From Leuconostoc lactis KCTC 3528 = DSM 20202 (GTDB lineage Bacteria; Bacillota; Bacilli; Lactobacillales; Lactobacillaceae), in contig NZ_BMWM01000009.1 of assembly GCF_014651235.1 (NCBI RefSeq), positions 1 to 59,720 on the forward strand: a stretch of 59,720 nt of DNA, in the 5' to 3' direction. Positions within the stretch are counted from its first letter, which is position 1; the number at the start of each line of letters is the position of its first letter. Below, piece by piece: positions 22,988-28,139 of this stretch. The notes under the pieces were generated by a model that saw nothing but the letters and a program-made list of their open reading frames with translations, did no database searches and had not been told where the DNA came from. The position numbers and the translations under genes were made by a program.

Positions 22988-24262
22988 TTAACGTAAGAAA
23001 CGAATTAAGATACCACCAAGAATCAAGACAATGGCGCCACCCATCCGGTTACCCATCTGGGCAAACGCAATCATTTCCATGCGATTGGCAGCTGACAAAA
23101 CGGCCACGTTTCCAGTACCACCCATACTATTGTCAGCCATGCCCGCTGCAATTGCCGCTTCAACAGGATACAAGCCAAATAATTGCCCGATTAACGCACT
23201 CGCTAATCCCATCACCACCACACTAGTCAAAACTAACAACACAAACTGCCAAGTCAATGAATGCGCTAACACGTTCAAATCAATCAAGGCTAACCCAATA
23301 CCGGCCAGCACGGCATGCGTTAAATTCCCCATGATCACTTGATTAAACATCACAACTGAATCTTCTAATGGCTTGGGTACCCAATTAAAGGCTTTAAAAA
23401 TAATCACTAAAATAATAACAAACGCGTAGGTATGCACTTTTGGTACGAAATCATTCAAGATTGTGCCGACCAAGAAAAATGAAAAGGCAAGCATCATCCC
23501 CACACCGATGCGTGTTGCATCAAGATTGGTCACAGGCTGTGATTTTTCAGCTGCTGTAATCGGAATTAGCACGCCATGCCCATCATATTTGGTATTGGCA
23601 CCGACTTTGGCAATCAAGGCTGCCCCAATGACTGCCATGACATTGCCTAACGTCACGGCTGGAATTAATTCAGAAAACATGACCCCAGCATTCGTCCCTA
23701 ATCCTTGCGCATAAATATGTGATAGTGGAACGGCACCAGCACCAATACCACCAGCCATCATCGGCATCGACACAAACATTACCGCATGACCAAAACCAAC
23801 GCCAAGCAGCCAGCCGACGATACCAACAGCAAAGAAACCAAGTACCATTGCTGCTAGCGATACTGGAATAAACCGCACAGCTGCCTTTAACAACAAATGA
23901 CGATTCATACCCAGGATTGAGCCGACAATTAACGCGGCAATATAAAAATCCAGTAAGCCGTTTTCATTCATAAAGGTTTTGGTTGCCGTGACCACATCAG
24001 CTGGTATCCAACCCAGTGCCGCTAACGCTGCGGCTGCAAAAATGGTAAAGACCGACCCACCACCCAAGTAAGATTTAACGATCGGTAAGTGATTACCAAT
24101 ATAGTAGAAAAAGTGACCCAGCAAGACTAACATCAACGTTAAGCCCAACATATTAAGCGGCAACTTATGCAACGCAATGGTCAACGCTAAAATGACCATC
24201 ATGGTGAGGTAAAGCGGTAAATTAACGCCACTAACCTGTGTTGCCCGTATTTTTTGCATCAT
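22988..24262 (-). CDS. mleP: Malate transporter, 2-hydroxycarboxylate transporter family
   Basis: This protein of about 424 residues is of the CitP/MleP type. It exchanges malate for lactate or takes up malate electrogenically, building membrane potential during malolactic fermentation. The two family GGxG reentrant-loop motifs are visible: MPMMAGGIGAGAVPLS near residue 175 and MADNSMGGTGNVAVLSAANRMEMI near residue 385. The C-terminal Arg block GNRMGGAIVLI follows. The start is placed at the ATG at 24262; an upstream GTG frame lies within the end of mleA. It follows mleA by 20 nt. Citrate is a possible alternative substrate, but the neighbours favour malate. Confidence 0.92.
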   Translation of the reverse strand: MMQKIRATQVSGVNLPLYLTMMVILALTIALHKLPLNMLGLTLMLVLLGHFFYYIGNHLPIVKSYLGGGSVFTIFAAAALAALGWIPADVVTATKTFMNENGLLDFYIAALIVGSILGMNRHLLLKAAVRFIPVSLAAMVLGFFAVGIVGWLLGVGFGHAVMFVSMPMMAGGIGAGAVPLSHIYAQGLGTNAGVMFSELIPAVTLGNVMAVIGAALIAKVGANTKYDGHGVLIPITAAEKSQPVTNLDATRIGVGMMLAFSFFLVGTILNDFVPKVHTYAFVIILVIIFKAFNWVPKPLEDSVVMFNQVIMGNLTHAVLAGIGLALIDLNVLAHSLTWQFVLLVLTSVVVMGLASALIGQLFGLYPVEAAIAAGMADNSMGGTGNVAVLSAANRMEMIAFAQMGNRMGGAIVLILGGILIRFLR

Positions 24263-24282
24263 AATTTTATTATCTATCCCGC

Positions 24283-25911
24283 TTAATATTCTGCCGACCA
24301 CTTCGCATCTTTAACAGCCTGTTTTGCGTCAGCAATTGGTTCACGATTCAAACCTTGATCCAAGACACTTTGAGCGGTCACTTCAGCAATTTTTTGTGAA
24401 AACGCCGTCAAATGAGAAACCGGTGGCAATACTGCAGCCCCTGCTTCTTGCGCATCAACTAAGCCACCAAGCGCATGAATCGCCGCCGAAATAGTTTCCT
24501 GCGTTAACAATTTTGCCGTTGATGCAATCAACCCAAAGCCTAAACCAGGATAAATCAAAGCATTATTCCCTTGTCCGATTTTGTAAGTCACCTCTTTATA
24601 AGTCACATCAGCAGCCGGAATACCCGTTGCAATCAAAGCCTGACCATCGGTCCATTGAATGATATCTTCAGCAGTTGCTTCGGCCAGTTTGGTTGGATTT
24701 GACAAGGGGAAAATAATTGGACGTGGTGTATGTGCGGCCATTTCCTTCACAATCTCTTCGGTAAAGGTTCCCGGTTGTGTTGACGTCCCAATCAAAACTG
24801 TTGGATGAATCGTTTTCACAACATCCGCCAAGTTTGTCAACGTATCAGCATTGTTAAATTCGGCACGTGAACGGGTGAATGGTTTTTGGGTGGCCGTTAA
24901 GTCTGGTGTATCTTCAAATAACAACCCTTGCTTATCGACCAAGTAGAACTGTTGGCGGGCTTCGTCAGCAGTCAAGCCAGCACGCTGCAATTCCGTGAAT
25001 ATTTGATTGACTATTCCCATGCCAGCTGTCCCAGCGCCAAAGGTAACGAAGGTTTGATCAACGAGTTTTCCCTTAGAAATGTTCAAAGCCCCGAAGATAC
25101 CAGCTAAAACGATCATCCCAGTCCCTTGGATATCATCATTAAAGGTTGCGATTTTATCTTTGTATTTATCTAAGATGACTTGGGCATTTCCCCGACCAAA
25201 ATCTTCCCAATGCAACAATGATTCAGGGAACAAAGCTTGTTCAGCAGTCACAAATTGATCAATGAACGCCAGATAGTCCTTACCAGCAACCCGTGGGTGC
25301 CGGTTACCCAGGTAACGTGGGTTGTCGAGCAAAGTTTGATTATTGGTTCCTGCATCAATACTGATTGCCAAAACACTGGCTGGGTCAATACCAGCCGCTG
25401 CGGTATAAACCATCAACTTACCAACCGCGATATCAACCCCGTTGACACCCCAATCACCCATGCCAAGAATGCCTTCAGCATCAGTCACGACAACCAACTT
25501 AATATCACGACCAGCTGCGGCATTTAGCAAGGATTGCTGAATGTCTTCTGGTCGGTCAACTGACAAAAAGGCAGCATTTTGTGGATTAGTAAAAATGTCA
25601 TTATATTGTTCAATGGCATCAGCTACGACTGGATCATAGACAATTGGCATAAATTCAGCGACATGTTGGTCCATCAAATGATAAAACAGCGTGACATTTT
25701 CATTAAATAAGTTCATCAAGAAAATACGCTTTTCAAGTGGCGCATCTTTTGATTGAAATTGCTGATAGGCTTGTGCGGCTTGCTCATCGATTGTTTGTAC
25801 TTGACTTGGCAAAGTCCCAATCAGACCAAGCGTGCGACGTTCTTCTTGTGTAAAAGCCGTCCCTTTGTTCAGAAATGGATTACGCAGTACCTCATATCCT
25901 GTGGTTGTCAT
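24283..25911 (-). CDS. mleA: Malolactic enzyme
   Basis: The enzyme converts L-malate to L-lactate and CO2 with NAD+ and Mn2+, without net redox change. The 542-residue length is typical. [11 protein letters not shown] at the N-terminus, [36 protein letters not shown] and [10 protein letters not shown] fit the malolactic enzyme branch rather than the SfcA malic enzyme branch, which has GDQG and QFEDF at the same places. The ATG at 25911 has GGAGG 8 nt upstream; ten earlier codons in frame lack such support. The operon mleA-mleP is controlled by the divergent mleR and the palindromic promoter at 25954-25986. Confidence 0.95.
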
Positions 25912-25953
25912 GTTTAAATCCTCCAAATGTTTGTTTATCATTTAACAACTGCC

Positions 25954-25986
25954 TTGACTATACAGGTCGCCATCGTTTATAGTCAA
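25954..25986. promoter_or_regulatory. Palindromic double promoter between mleA and mleR
   Basis: TTGACTATA (25954-25962) and TATAGTCAA (25978-25986) are perfect inverted arms. On each strand they read as TTGACT, an 18-nt spacer and TATAGT. One 33-bp element thus supplies near-consensus -35 and -10 boxes in both directions: minus for mleA-mleP, plus for mleR. RNA polymerase could occupy only one orientation at a time. Confidence 0.75.
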
Positions 25987-25999
25987 ACAAGCACGTCGT

Positions 26000-26016
26000 C
26001 ATAAATAAAATTTATG
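26000..26016. promoter_or_regulatory. Candidate MleR (LysR-type) binding box
   Basis: CATAAA (26000-26005) and TTTATG (26011-26016) are inverted around AT-rich bases, matching the T-N11-A style of LysR-type sites. It lies 14 bp from the mle promoter, upstream of the mleA -35 and within the mleR leader, where an activator or autoregulator would bind. Confidence 0.5.
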
Positions 26017-26052
26017 ATGTTAATCAAAACATTGATATTTAGGGGTTTAAAC

Positions 26053-26943
26053 ATGCAAATTAACGATTTAAAATATTATGATGCGTTATATCATGAAAAA
26101 AGTTTTACAAAAGTGGCTAAAAAATTCAAAGTAAGTCAGCCATCCATTAGCAGTGCCATCAAACGGCTTGAATCATACTTTCAAGCCAAGTTAGTGATTC
26201 GCGGACATGCGACCGCAGATCTTAAATTTACGCCAGCCGGCGAACAACTCTACCAACATGCGGCCTCTATTTTAAATGAACTCGATAGCGCCCACCAAGA
26301 AATTACCCATTTGCAATCACGCACGACAACAATTGGACTGCCCCCGATTCTCAAACATGCTTATTTTGCCAAAATCGTGTTAGCCACCAAGGCTTTTGAT
26401 CGCCAATATAATATTGACCATATGCATATTTATGAAGCTGGCTCTAACGGATTAACCCAATCGTTGATTAATGGCGATATTGATTTAGCCTTACTTGGTT
26501 CTTTAGGTCAAGCCACTAATGACAAACTCCAAGTTTTTCCATTTGCCACAGCCCCGTTCTATATTTATATGGCCAAAACGAATCCGTTAGCCCAACAGCA
26601 AACTGGTATTTATTTTAAAGATTTAAAAAACCAACTATTTGTCTCATTTGATGCGAGTTTTATTCACGTCCAAGCGATGAAGCAACTGGCCAAAAACGCT
26701 GGCATTCGCCCCAAAACGTTCTTAAAAACCAATGATGTCTCCTTTCTCATGAGCTTAGTAGCCGAAAACATCGGGGTCGCCTTACTAACCAATATCGTAA
26801 CCCCAACCGATCCAAATATTGTCGCCATCCCCTTACTTGATGACAATCAACCAACTTTTAGTGCCAATGTGGCCTTTCGGAAAAATCATAATTTAACGAC
26901 TGAGGAAACTTTACTCATCCGGATTTTATCCCAACAAACCTAA
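26053..26943 (+). CDS. mleR: LysR-type regulator of malolactic fermentation
   Basis: This is a 296-residue LysR-family protein. The N-terminal winged HTH is clear: MQINDLKYYDALYHEKSFTKVAKKFKVSQPSISSAIKRLE has the usual LKYF-like helix and QPSISSAIKRLE recognition helix. The effector domain starts near residue 90 and would sense malate. The ATG at 26053 has AGGGG 7 nt upstream. An ATG 39 nt earlier lies in the candidate operator zone and is less likely. Divergence from mleA-mleP is the arrangement seen in other lactic acid bacteria. Confidence 0.9.
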   Translation: MQINDLKYYDALYHEKSFTKVAKKFKVSQPSISSAIKRLESYFQAKLVIRGHATADLKFTPAGEQLYQHAASILNELDSAHQEITHLQSRTTTIGLPPILKHAYFAKIVLATKAFDRQYNIDHMHIYEAGSNGLTQSLINGDIDLALLGSLGQATNDKLQVFPFATAPFYIYMAKTNPLAQQQTGIYFKDLKNQLFVSFDASFIHVQAMKQLAKNAGIRPKTFLKTNDVSFLMSLVAENIGVALLTNIVTPTDPNIVAIPLLDDNQPTFSANVAFRKNHNLTTEETLLIRILSQQT

Positions 26944-27026
26944 GCCAAATCCCATCGTGATTAGCAACCCGTAGCCCTGACAAATCAGGTATAATGAGTG
27001 AATATCGAACTCTAGAAAGCAAAAAA

Positions 27027-28139
27027 ATGATCACAGTAGTCAAAAGAATTTATACCGATAAAACGTTTTTGGTCACGTTGGGCTTAGCCATCGTTGCCCT
27101 TATTTTCGGCCAAGTGTCGCCGAAAGATATTGATAGTCACACCATTGTGGCACTGCTGGCGTTGCTTGTTATTGTCACCATTTACGGCCAACTCCATGTC
27201 TTGACTTACATCGCTAACACCATTGTGGCGAAATGTCGCACAACTCGAGATATCATTGGGGTAATGCTCCTCTTTTCATTTGTTGGCTCGATGTTTTTTA
27301 CCAATGATGTGGCCATTTTAACGCTCGTGCCTATCTTTTTTAAGATCAGTCAACAACTCAATCTCAAAAAAATTGTGCCGATTAGTTTATTAACGATCTA
27401 TGCCAATTTAGGCAGTGCGTTGACGCCGTTTGGTAACCCACAAAACCTCTATTTAGTCTCGTATTATCATCTCAGCTTACCGCACTTTATGACCTTATCA
27501 CTACCAATCGGTGTGCTTGGTTTTCTAAGCTTAGTTGTCGTCACCTTGTTCTTTCCGGCACGACCAATTCCAGCCATGACGACAACAGTCCCACCCATTG
27601 ATCGGCGCAAAGTCAGCTGGCTGTTAGTCGCTACGGTGATCGTATTACTTGGTATCTTGTCGGTCTTACCCATTTGGCTAGCCGTCGTGGTCAGTTTATT
27701 AGCCGCTGGTCTGTTAGATCGCCAAGTTCTCGTCAAAGTAGACTACGGCATTTTGTTCATGTTCATCAATTTTTTCATCATTGTCGGGGCCATTAGTCGC
27801 TTACCAGCCATTCACCACCTCTTATCATTCACAACCGACACAACGCTCAAAACATTTTTTGCTGGCGTCATCAGTAGCCAAGTGATTAGTAATGTGCCAG
27901 CTGCGGTATTACTCTCTAAGTTCACAACACACGTGACTGGTTTGTATCTAGGCGTCACCGTTGGTGGTTTAGGAACGCTCATTGCCTCACTGGCCAATTT
28001 ACTCGCTTTACGTCAATATCAACTATTTGACCGTGATCACTCAAGTTATCATTTTTTCAAAACATTTACTTGGCTCAACGTCGTCTATTTAGTTATTTTT
28101 ATGGTCATTGGCAGCTCAATTTGCCTCTGGCTCACCTAA
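27027..28139 (+). CDS. ArsB/NhaD-type (SLC13-like) anion or ion transporter
   Basis: The 370-residue protein has about ten hydrophobic segments. FFTNDVAILTLVPI and NLGSALTPFGNPQNLYLVSYY are hallmark half-site motifs of the ion transporter superfamily. The second repeat motif appears as SNVPAAVLLSKFT. The substrate may be a dicarboxylate, citrate, arsenite or Na+/H+. The start at 27027 is preferred because the earlier ATG at 26994 overlaps a TATAAT -10 box (26990-26995). It follows mleR by 83 nt, so a link to organic acid use is possible but unproven. Confidence 0.85.
   Translation: MITVVKRIYTDKTFLVTLGLAIVALIFGQVSPKDIDSHTIVALLALLVIVTIYGQLHVLTYIANTIVAKCRTTRDIIGVMLLFSFVGSMFFTNDVAILTLVPIFFKISQQLNLKKIVPISLLTIYANLGSALTPFGNPQNLYLVSYYHLSLPHFMTLSLPIGVLGFLSLVVVTLFFPARPIPAMTTTVPPIDRRKVSWLLVATVIVLLGILSVLPIWLAVVVSLLAAGLLDRQVLVKVDYGILFMFINFFIIVGAISRLPAIHHLLSFTTDTTLKTFFAGVISSQVISNVPAAVLLSKFTTHVTGLYLGVTVGGLGTLIASLANLLALRQYQLFDRDHSSYHFFKTFTWLNVVYLVIFMVIGSSICLWLT

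Follow-up and report, generated by a model that had tools for sequence, protein, structure and literature searches.

Overlapping divergent promoters are an established form of bacterial gene organization, and in the mer, argECBH and ilvYC systems RNA polymerase bound at one promoter occludes the other. A related arrangement is found among LysR-family regulators: where the regulator gene is divergent from its target, autoregulation is expected, and activators of this family recognize a T-N11-A dyad some 50–70 bp upstream of the target start. Overlapping divergent promoters are not known to us to form a perfect reciprocal palindrome of −35 and −10 elements.

In the bidirectional promoters described by Warman and co-workers, the two directions share one −10 element and the starts lie 7–25 bp apart, mostly 18 bp (PMC10268837). 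In such bacterial promoters, one binding event excludes the other (Warman et al., 2026, and Warman et al., 2021, as cited there), the same principle that we propose for the locus described here. MleR binding has been reported in Lacticaseibacillus paracasei (PMC13390482) and in Streptococcus mutans (PMC2834670), and in Lc. paracasei MleR activates mleST, with a site reported at −80 to −61 (PMC13390482); no corresponding binding report was found for Leuconostoc. Among the papers listed by our literature search, none dealt with the repeat analyzed below or with a mapped mle transcription start in Leuconostoc, which is not a claim that none is in print.

The window, that is, the whole 59,720-nucleotide stretch of Leuconostoc lactis DNA that was analyzed, carries the malolactic gene mleA and the regulator gene mleR in divergent orientation. 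Between them, at 25954–25986, the sequence reads TTGACTATA-N15-TATAGTCAA, an inverted repeat. The features of the locus are as follows.

22988..24301, minus strand: 2-hydroxycarboxylate transporter gene, malate permease candidate (Pfam 2HCT, E 1.3e-130)
24286..25911, minus strand: mleA, malolactic enzyme, 542 aa (NF041582, 942.9 bits against a cut-off of 850), with the stop codon beyond
25909..25911, minus strand: mleA start codon, from the translation
25920..25924, minus strand: mleA ribosome-binding site GGAGG, from the sequence
25950, minus strand: predicted mleA transcription start (A), 7 nt past the −10 and placed from the −10 position
25954..25962, both strands: left arm TTGACTATA, predicted mleR −35 and mleA −10, interleaved
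25954–25959, plus strand: predicted mleR −35 TTGACT, inside the left arm
25962–25957, minus strand: predicted mleA −10 TATAGT, inside the left arm
25963..25977, no strand: 15-nt centre of the repeat, variable in letters and fixed in length
25978..25986, both strands: right arm TATAGTCAA, predicted mleA −35 and mleR −10, interleaved
25986–25981, minus strand: predicted mleA −35 TTGACT, inside the right arm
25978–25983, plus strand: predicted mleR −10 TATAGT, inside the right arm
25990, plus strand: predicted mleR transcription start (A), 7 nt past the −10 and placed in the same way
26000..26016, no strand: LysR-type dyad CATAAAT-AAA-ATTTATG, putative MleR recognition site, from the sequence
26053..26943, plus strand: mleR, LysR-family regulator, 296 aa (Pfam HTH_1 PF00126 and LysR_substrate PF03466; ATG at 26053)

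The transporter gene lies downstream of mleA and overlaps its end; against TIGR00783 its product scores 482.9 bits, under the cut-off of 549.05. The name MleR for the product of 26053..26943 rests on homology and neighbourhood, and no listed NCBIfam model reached its own cut-off for this protein. It is 85% identical to the MleR of Leuconostoc holzapfelii and 60% identical to that of L. inhae, the two named relatives that were found. The mleA–mleR intergenic sequence of L. holzapfelii is identical to that of G203, a genome assigned to the genus of the window, and the host is accordingly a Leuconostoc and not a Weissella.

A promoter consensus scan detected TTGACT-18-TATAGT on the plus strand (25954–25983) and on the minus strand (25986–25957), each hexamer pair matching 10 of the 12 consensus bases. 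The proposal of the first-pass annotation that a single palindrome acts as a promoter in both directions was thereby borne out at the level of sequence, by near-consensus matches, as was its description of the arms, each of which supplies a −35 on one strand and a −10 on the other with equal 18-nt spacers. The −35 hexamer of each gene has three bases in common with the −10 of the other gene, which puts about 40 bp between the predicted starts. Within the window, a search that allowed up to three mismatches returned one such palindrome, without any mismatch, against a mean of 0.05 in 100 shuffles (five of which held one site); in the 1.65-Mb genome assembly the palindrome is present once.

Compared with the known systems, the consensus matches place two overlapping core promoters on opposite strands within 25954–25986, and the repeat fits, as a variant, the broader and already known class of overlapping divergent promoters. 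The resemblance to mer, argECBH and ilvYC lies in the occlusion of polymerase between such promoters, which is proposed here. With the promoters of Warman et al. (2026; PMC12825309) and Middlemiss et al. (2023; PMC10268837) the repeat has in common that short pseudo-symmetric DNA could load polymerase in two ways. However, its predicted geometry is not that of this type, which has a shared −10 and starts 7–25 bp apart: the predicted starts are 40 bp apart, and the two −10 elements are separate (25957–25962 and 25978–25983), each interleaved with the −35 of the other gene. The locus also has the form of a LysR regulator/target module, with a LysR-family regulator transcribed away from the target, a shared control region, and a dyad upstream of the target −35. 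This dyad is a perfect 7+3+7 palindrome with T-N11-A inside; its centre is at −58 from the predicted mleA start, within the range of about 50–70 bp given above, and at +19 from the predicted mleR start. Unlike in the usual LysR pairs, the predicted regulator promoter mirrors that of the target, and the dyad lies downstream of the predicted mleR start and not over the core promoter.

We consider it probable, although far from certain, that the repeat is an interleaved pair of divergent sigma-A promoters, in which the mleR promoter of Leuconostoc was built onto the mleA promoter, so that the two are mutually exclusive, with MleR favouring mleA. The evidence for this reading comes from the two hexamer pairs, from the conservation of the repeat within the genus and from its comparison with the mle loci of other members of the family.

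An ortholog of MleR was detected at E ≤ 1e-40 in 14 of the 19 Leuconostoc genomes, and in all 14 of these loci mleA is divergent from mleR and the exact palindrome with a gap of 15 is present. The palindrome was also found in G183, the mle locus of which is decayed; it was not found in the remaining four of the 19 genomes, which yielded no MleR match at this threshold. For a column-wise comparison, 14 distinct intergenic sequences were aligned, 13 from Leuconostoc and one from G321, a genome of another genus, and changes were counted on the MleR topology. All 18 arm columns were without change, compared with 27 of the 123 other intergenic columns (Fisher P 7e-11), and the 15-nt centre had a mean of 2.27 changes per column versus zero in the arms. 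The three columns of the left TTG, which are outside both mleA hexamers, showed no changes, whereas the columns beside them showed 4, 5 and 2; at the background rate, three columns named in this way would all stay unchanged with a probability of about 0.011. In G183 (L158, G183:C2:117000–122000), mleA is cut to a start of about 70 codons and mleR is in pieces, and the palindrome is intact. A gene for a CitMHS-family transporter follows mleR on the same strand in the window (26994–28139), and likewise follows the decayed mleR in G183.

The analysis was extended to mleA upstream regions from further genomes of the family, 87 with a divergent LysR gene and 13 that were first scored as lacking one (LysR within 480 bp). 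Eighty of these loci (L063–L142) were hand-picked from among the matches listed and are no random sample; L002 and L003 were left out of the counts as duplicates of L035 and L039; and the coverage of genus g18 was confined to G321 and G365. When the 13 loci were rechecked on longer stretches, L149–L151 were found to have the LysR gene behind inserted genes, L088 (L152) to have the arm and mleR further out, and L093 (L157) to have a LysR gene, while L095 (L153) and L098 (L154) had neither the right arm nor a LysR match on the longer stretches. The rows without LysR in the TTG, best-promoter and extended −10/dyad counts include the displaced L149–L151, and those in the first two counts also include L093.

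The right arm is present with at most one mismatch in all 87 of the other divergent mleA loci, and exactly in 76. The centre of the dyad is at +30 from the first base of the right arm in 71 of these 87 loci, in 11 of the 14 Leuconostoc loci, and in 5 of the 9 scored without adjacent LysR. The first-pass annotation had described a LysR box next to the repeat that could tip the choice of direction; the box is there, as a perfect dyad, but this spacing makes it a fixed part of the mleA promoter and not a mere neighbour. Six mleA loci of two genera (L143–L148) keep the right arm and the dyad, with no LysR match in the 1.6–2.5 kb of sequence upstream; the neighbour of mleA is the DNA polymerase III beta subunit gene dnaN in L143 and a ribose-phosphate pyrophosphokinase gene in L147. 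Because the right arm is family-wide and persists in these six loci, it is most simply taken to be primarily a −35/MleR element of mleA, and it goes with MleR-type control of this gene. A role as the mleR −10 was considered as the reason for the conservation of the right arm and was rejected, since the same six loci keep the arm with no LysR match in the upstream sequence covered.

At a spacer of 18, the mleA strand reads TATAGT in all 14 Leuconostoc loci and in 29 of the 87 others, and TAnnnT in 83 of the 87; the ACTATA of the left arm is the putative mleA −10. The predicted mleA half of the repeat, a leftward TTGACT-18-TATAGT with a dyad about 58 bp upstream of the predicted start, matches the mleA promoter layout seen throughout the family. 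In four genomes of genus g30 (L143–L146), where the right arm and the dyad are kept and no LysR match is nearby, a distant regulator may thus control mleA. In genus g5 (L149–L151 and L033), small inserted genes, in L150 one for a PspC-domain protein, part the mleA promoter from mleR.

The other half of the repeat is distributed differently. A TTG precedes ACTATA in 14 of 14 Leuconostoc loci versus only one of the 87 other divergent loci, and this single exception is G321, which belongs to another genus and has an MleR of the Leuconostoc clade. The left TTG completes a plus-strand −35 for the right-arm TATAGT, at a spacer of 18 nt. The resulting arm promoter is the best plus-strand promoter in all 14 Leuconostoc loci (score 11.0), compared with 5 of the 87 other divergent loci (mean 4.5), and in 3 of the 10 rows scored without LysR; the scores were derived from E. 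coli hexamer frequencies. Its occurrence in rows without LysR counts against the two-way reading, as does the narrow base of the constraint specific to mleR, which comes down to three bases, TTG; this trait may represent one or two evolutionary events. The first-pass annotation had also made its reading depend on persistence of the symmetry in close relatives. This holds exactly for the 14 Leuconostoc mleR loci; nearly all other genera, however, are without the symmetry, while mleA and an MleR-type site persist in them.

Where the TTG is missing, other elements were found. An extended −10 (TGNTANNNT) is present to the right of the arm in 40 of the 87 other divergent loci, versus 2.9 expected from shuffles, and in 37 of these 40 its hexamer is 17 or 24 nt from the start of the arm, adjoining or over the dyad. 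No extended −10 near the dyad was detected in the 14 Leuconostoc loci (0.4 by shuffles) or in the 9 rows scored without adjacent LysR (0.2 by shuffles). We read this element as the promoter from which many lactobacilli transcribe mleR, and the palindrome promoter as its substitute in Leuconostoc. However, both the extended −10 and the TTG are missing from 46 of the 87 loci, so that the missing extended −10 in Leuconostoc is not telling by itself; for 14 related sequences, moreover, a count of zero is close to the shuffle result. In 28 of the 87 the −10 of the best plus-strand promoter falls within the distal half of the dyad, at +35. The mleR promoters outside Leuconostoc are probably, judging from these patterns, of more than one kind.

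Across 397 sampled genomes of the family, the palindrome with a gap of 12–18 was found in 20, compared with one for a reversed-letter control. The 20 sites comprise 14 mleA/mleR loci and one decayed mle locus of the genus, one mleA/mleR locus of another genus, three LysR/MFS loci, and G133; 19 of them lie next to a LysR gene of the MleR type, intact or decayed, and the G133 palindrome (gap 13) had no LysR ORF in the 3 kb examined. The three LysR/MFS sites are from genus g19, in which 3 of the 5 sampled genomes have a gap-15 palindrome between a divergent MFS transporter gene and a related LysR gene, the product of which shares about 40% identity with MleR, with a LysR dyad again on the regulator side. 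In the MleR tree, for which only a midpoint root is available, the g19 LysR falls on the Leuconostoc side, apart from the mle rows of lactobacilli (support 97/94). Other members of this side of the tree are without the full symmetry, and both a single origin of the palindrome followed by losses and separate origins are possible. The MleR of G321 (L156) groups within the Leuconostoc rows at a support of 100/100, which suggests horizontal transfer of the mle locus.

Several other explanations of the repeat have to be weighed against these data. It could be an MleR-dependent promoter of mleA only, with mleR transcribed from elsewhere; the right arm would then combine the −35 with a half-site for activation by MleR, the left arm would be the −10, and the symmetry would arise because the reversed TTGACTATA happens to contain TATAGT. 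Retention of the right arm in the six loci without a LysR match, where its TATA is not kept for mleR, agrees with such a one-way promoter, and so does the occurrence of the mleA −10 TATAGT in 29 of the 87 other loci, nearly all of them without the TTG. Yet the TTG is invariant in Leuconostoc although it is outside both mleA hexamers, and the scan found no better plus-strand promoter in the 14 Leuconostoc intergenic regions; we regard a one-way promoter as unlikely. Alternatively, the arms could be half-sites for MleR, bound by the second dimer of a tetramer, or for some other regulator, and not a second promoter. This would account for the recurrence of the palindrome in three genomes in which a related LysR gene is paired with another gene, that of the MFS transporter, and for the conservation of the right arm, which runs beyond the −35 hexamer and accompanies the dyad. 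Against an operator of this kind, only one of the 87 other divergent loci has the full left arm, even though the right arm and the dyad are kept there; the arm centres are 24 bp apart, no whole number of helical turns at 10.5 bp per turn; and the left arm is over the mleA −10, an improbable place for an activator. We accordingly give the operator only a small chance. Finally, inverted repeats of the 9+9 type, at one fixed gap or another, are by our estimate not rare in a genome, and the symmetry might be fortuitous and without function. A chance origin was nevertheless rejected in view of the exact conservation in 14 distinct intergenic sequences and the 20 versus one of 397 genomes with the repeat and the control pattern, and its probability appears negligible.

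For the interleaved promoter pair that we favour, mutual exclusion of the predicted promoters follows from the geometry: the core elements interleave, and the two promoters of Leuconostoc therefore cannot be occupied together. One RNA polymerase would cover both, so that a start would be possible in either direction but not in both, and in the absence of malate both directions would share the site. With malate, MleR would activate mleA from the dyad and polymerase would be captured leftward, which would shut down mleR by occlusion; MleR would help in this shut-down by its position on the mleR transcript, roughly +11 to +27. Negative autoregulation of MleR would thereby be coupled to the firing of mleA. 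Such orientation competition as a regulatory principle is what we infer from the arrangement. A further-reaching version is that the MleR lineage of Leuconostoc moved the regulator promoter onto the target promoter, such that activation of mleA itself represses mleR, the two fire in strict alternation, and the same design operates at the LysR/MFS locus; we offer this as a tentative idea that could well be wrong.

Two sets of published data bear on the competition. In reporter strains of S. mutans, malate at low pH, together with MleR, increases the activity of both mle promoters, the opposite of a seesaw, which counts against competition; by qPCR, however, mleR showed no increase, and the arrangement of the locus is not that of Leuconostoc (PMC2834670). 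For five bidirectional promoters of E. coli, no competition was reported at basal activity, which also counts against it; strong activation of one direction led to competition, and the other direction could be repressed (PMC12825309).

Here a perfectly symmetric putative promoter occurs in nature, flanked by genes of known biology and by their regulator; it is conserved across the genus, and its non-symmetric relatives can serve as controls. Natural versions of both kinds make the competition directly testable, and the rule that activation in one direction suppresses the other can be examined where both core promoters match in hexamers and spacer length. The comparison further suggests that a regulator promoter could be moved by very few changes, here three bases. 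Malolactic fermentation matters in food and wine making.

The locus L159 was taken to be that of Lc. paracasei because it matches both published reporter primers exactly. Like the Leuconostoc loci, it has the dyad and TTTGACTATA in the same order; unlike them, it is without a symmetric left arm. Relative to the predicted start, its dyad occupies −67 to −51, compared with the reported site at −80 to −61, a disagreement of 10–13 bp, which implies that either the start or the site differs. By eye, the mleS leader of this presumed Lc. paracasei locus has, between the promoter and the gene, two long repeats that are nearly identical and that themselves contain inverted repeats. In the window, a TTGATAT-like stretch lies ahead of the mleR ribosome-binding site (26031–26038), and, again by eye, it is present in many Leuconostoc and in several lactobacillus mleR leaders.
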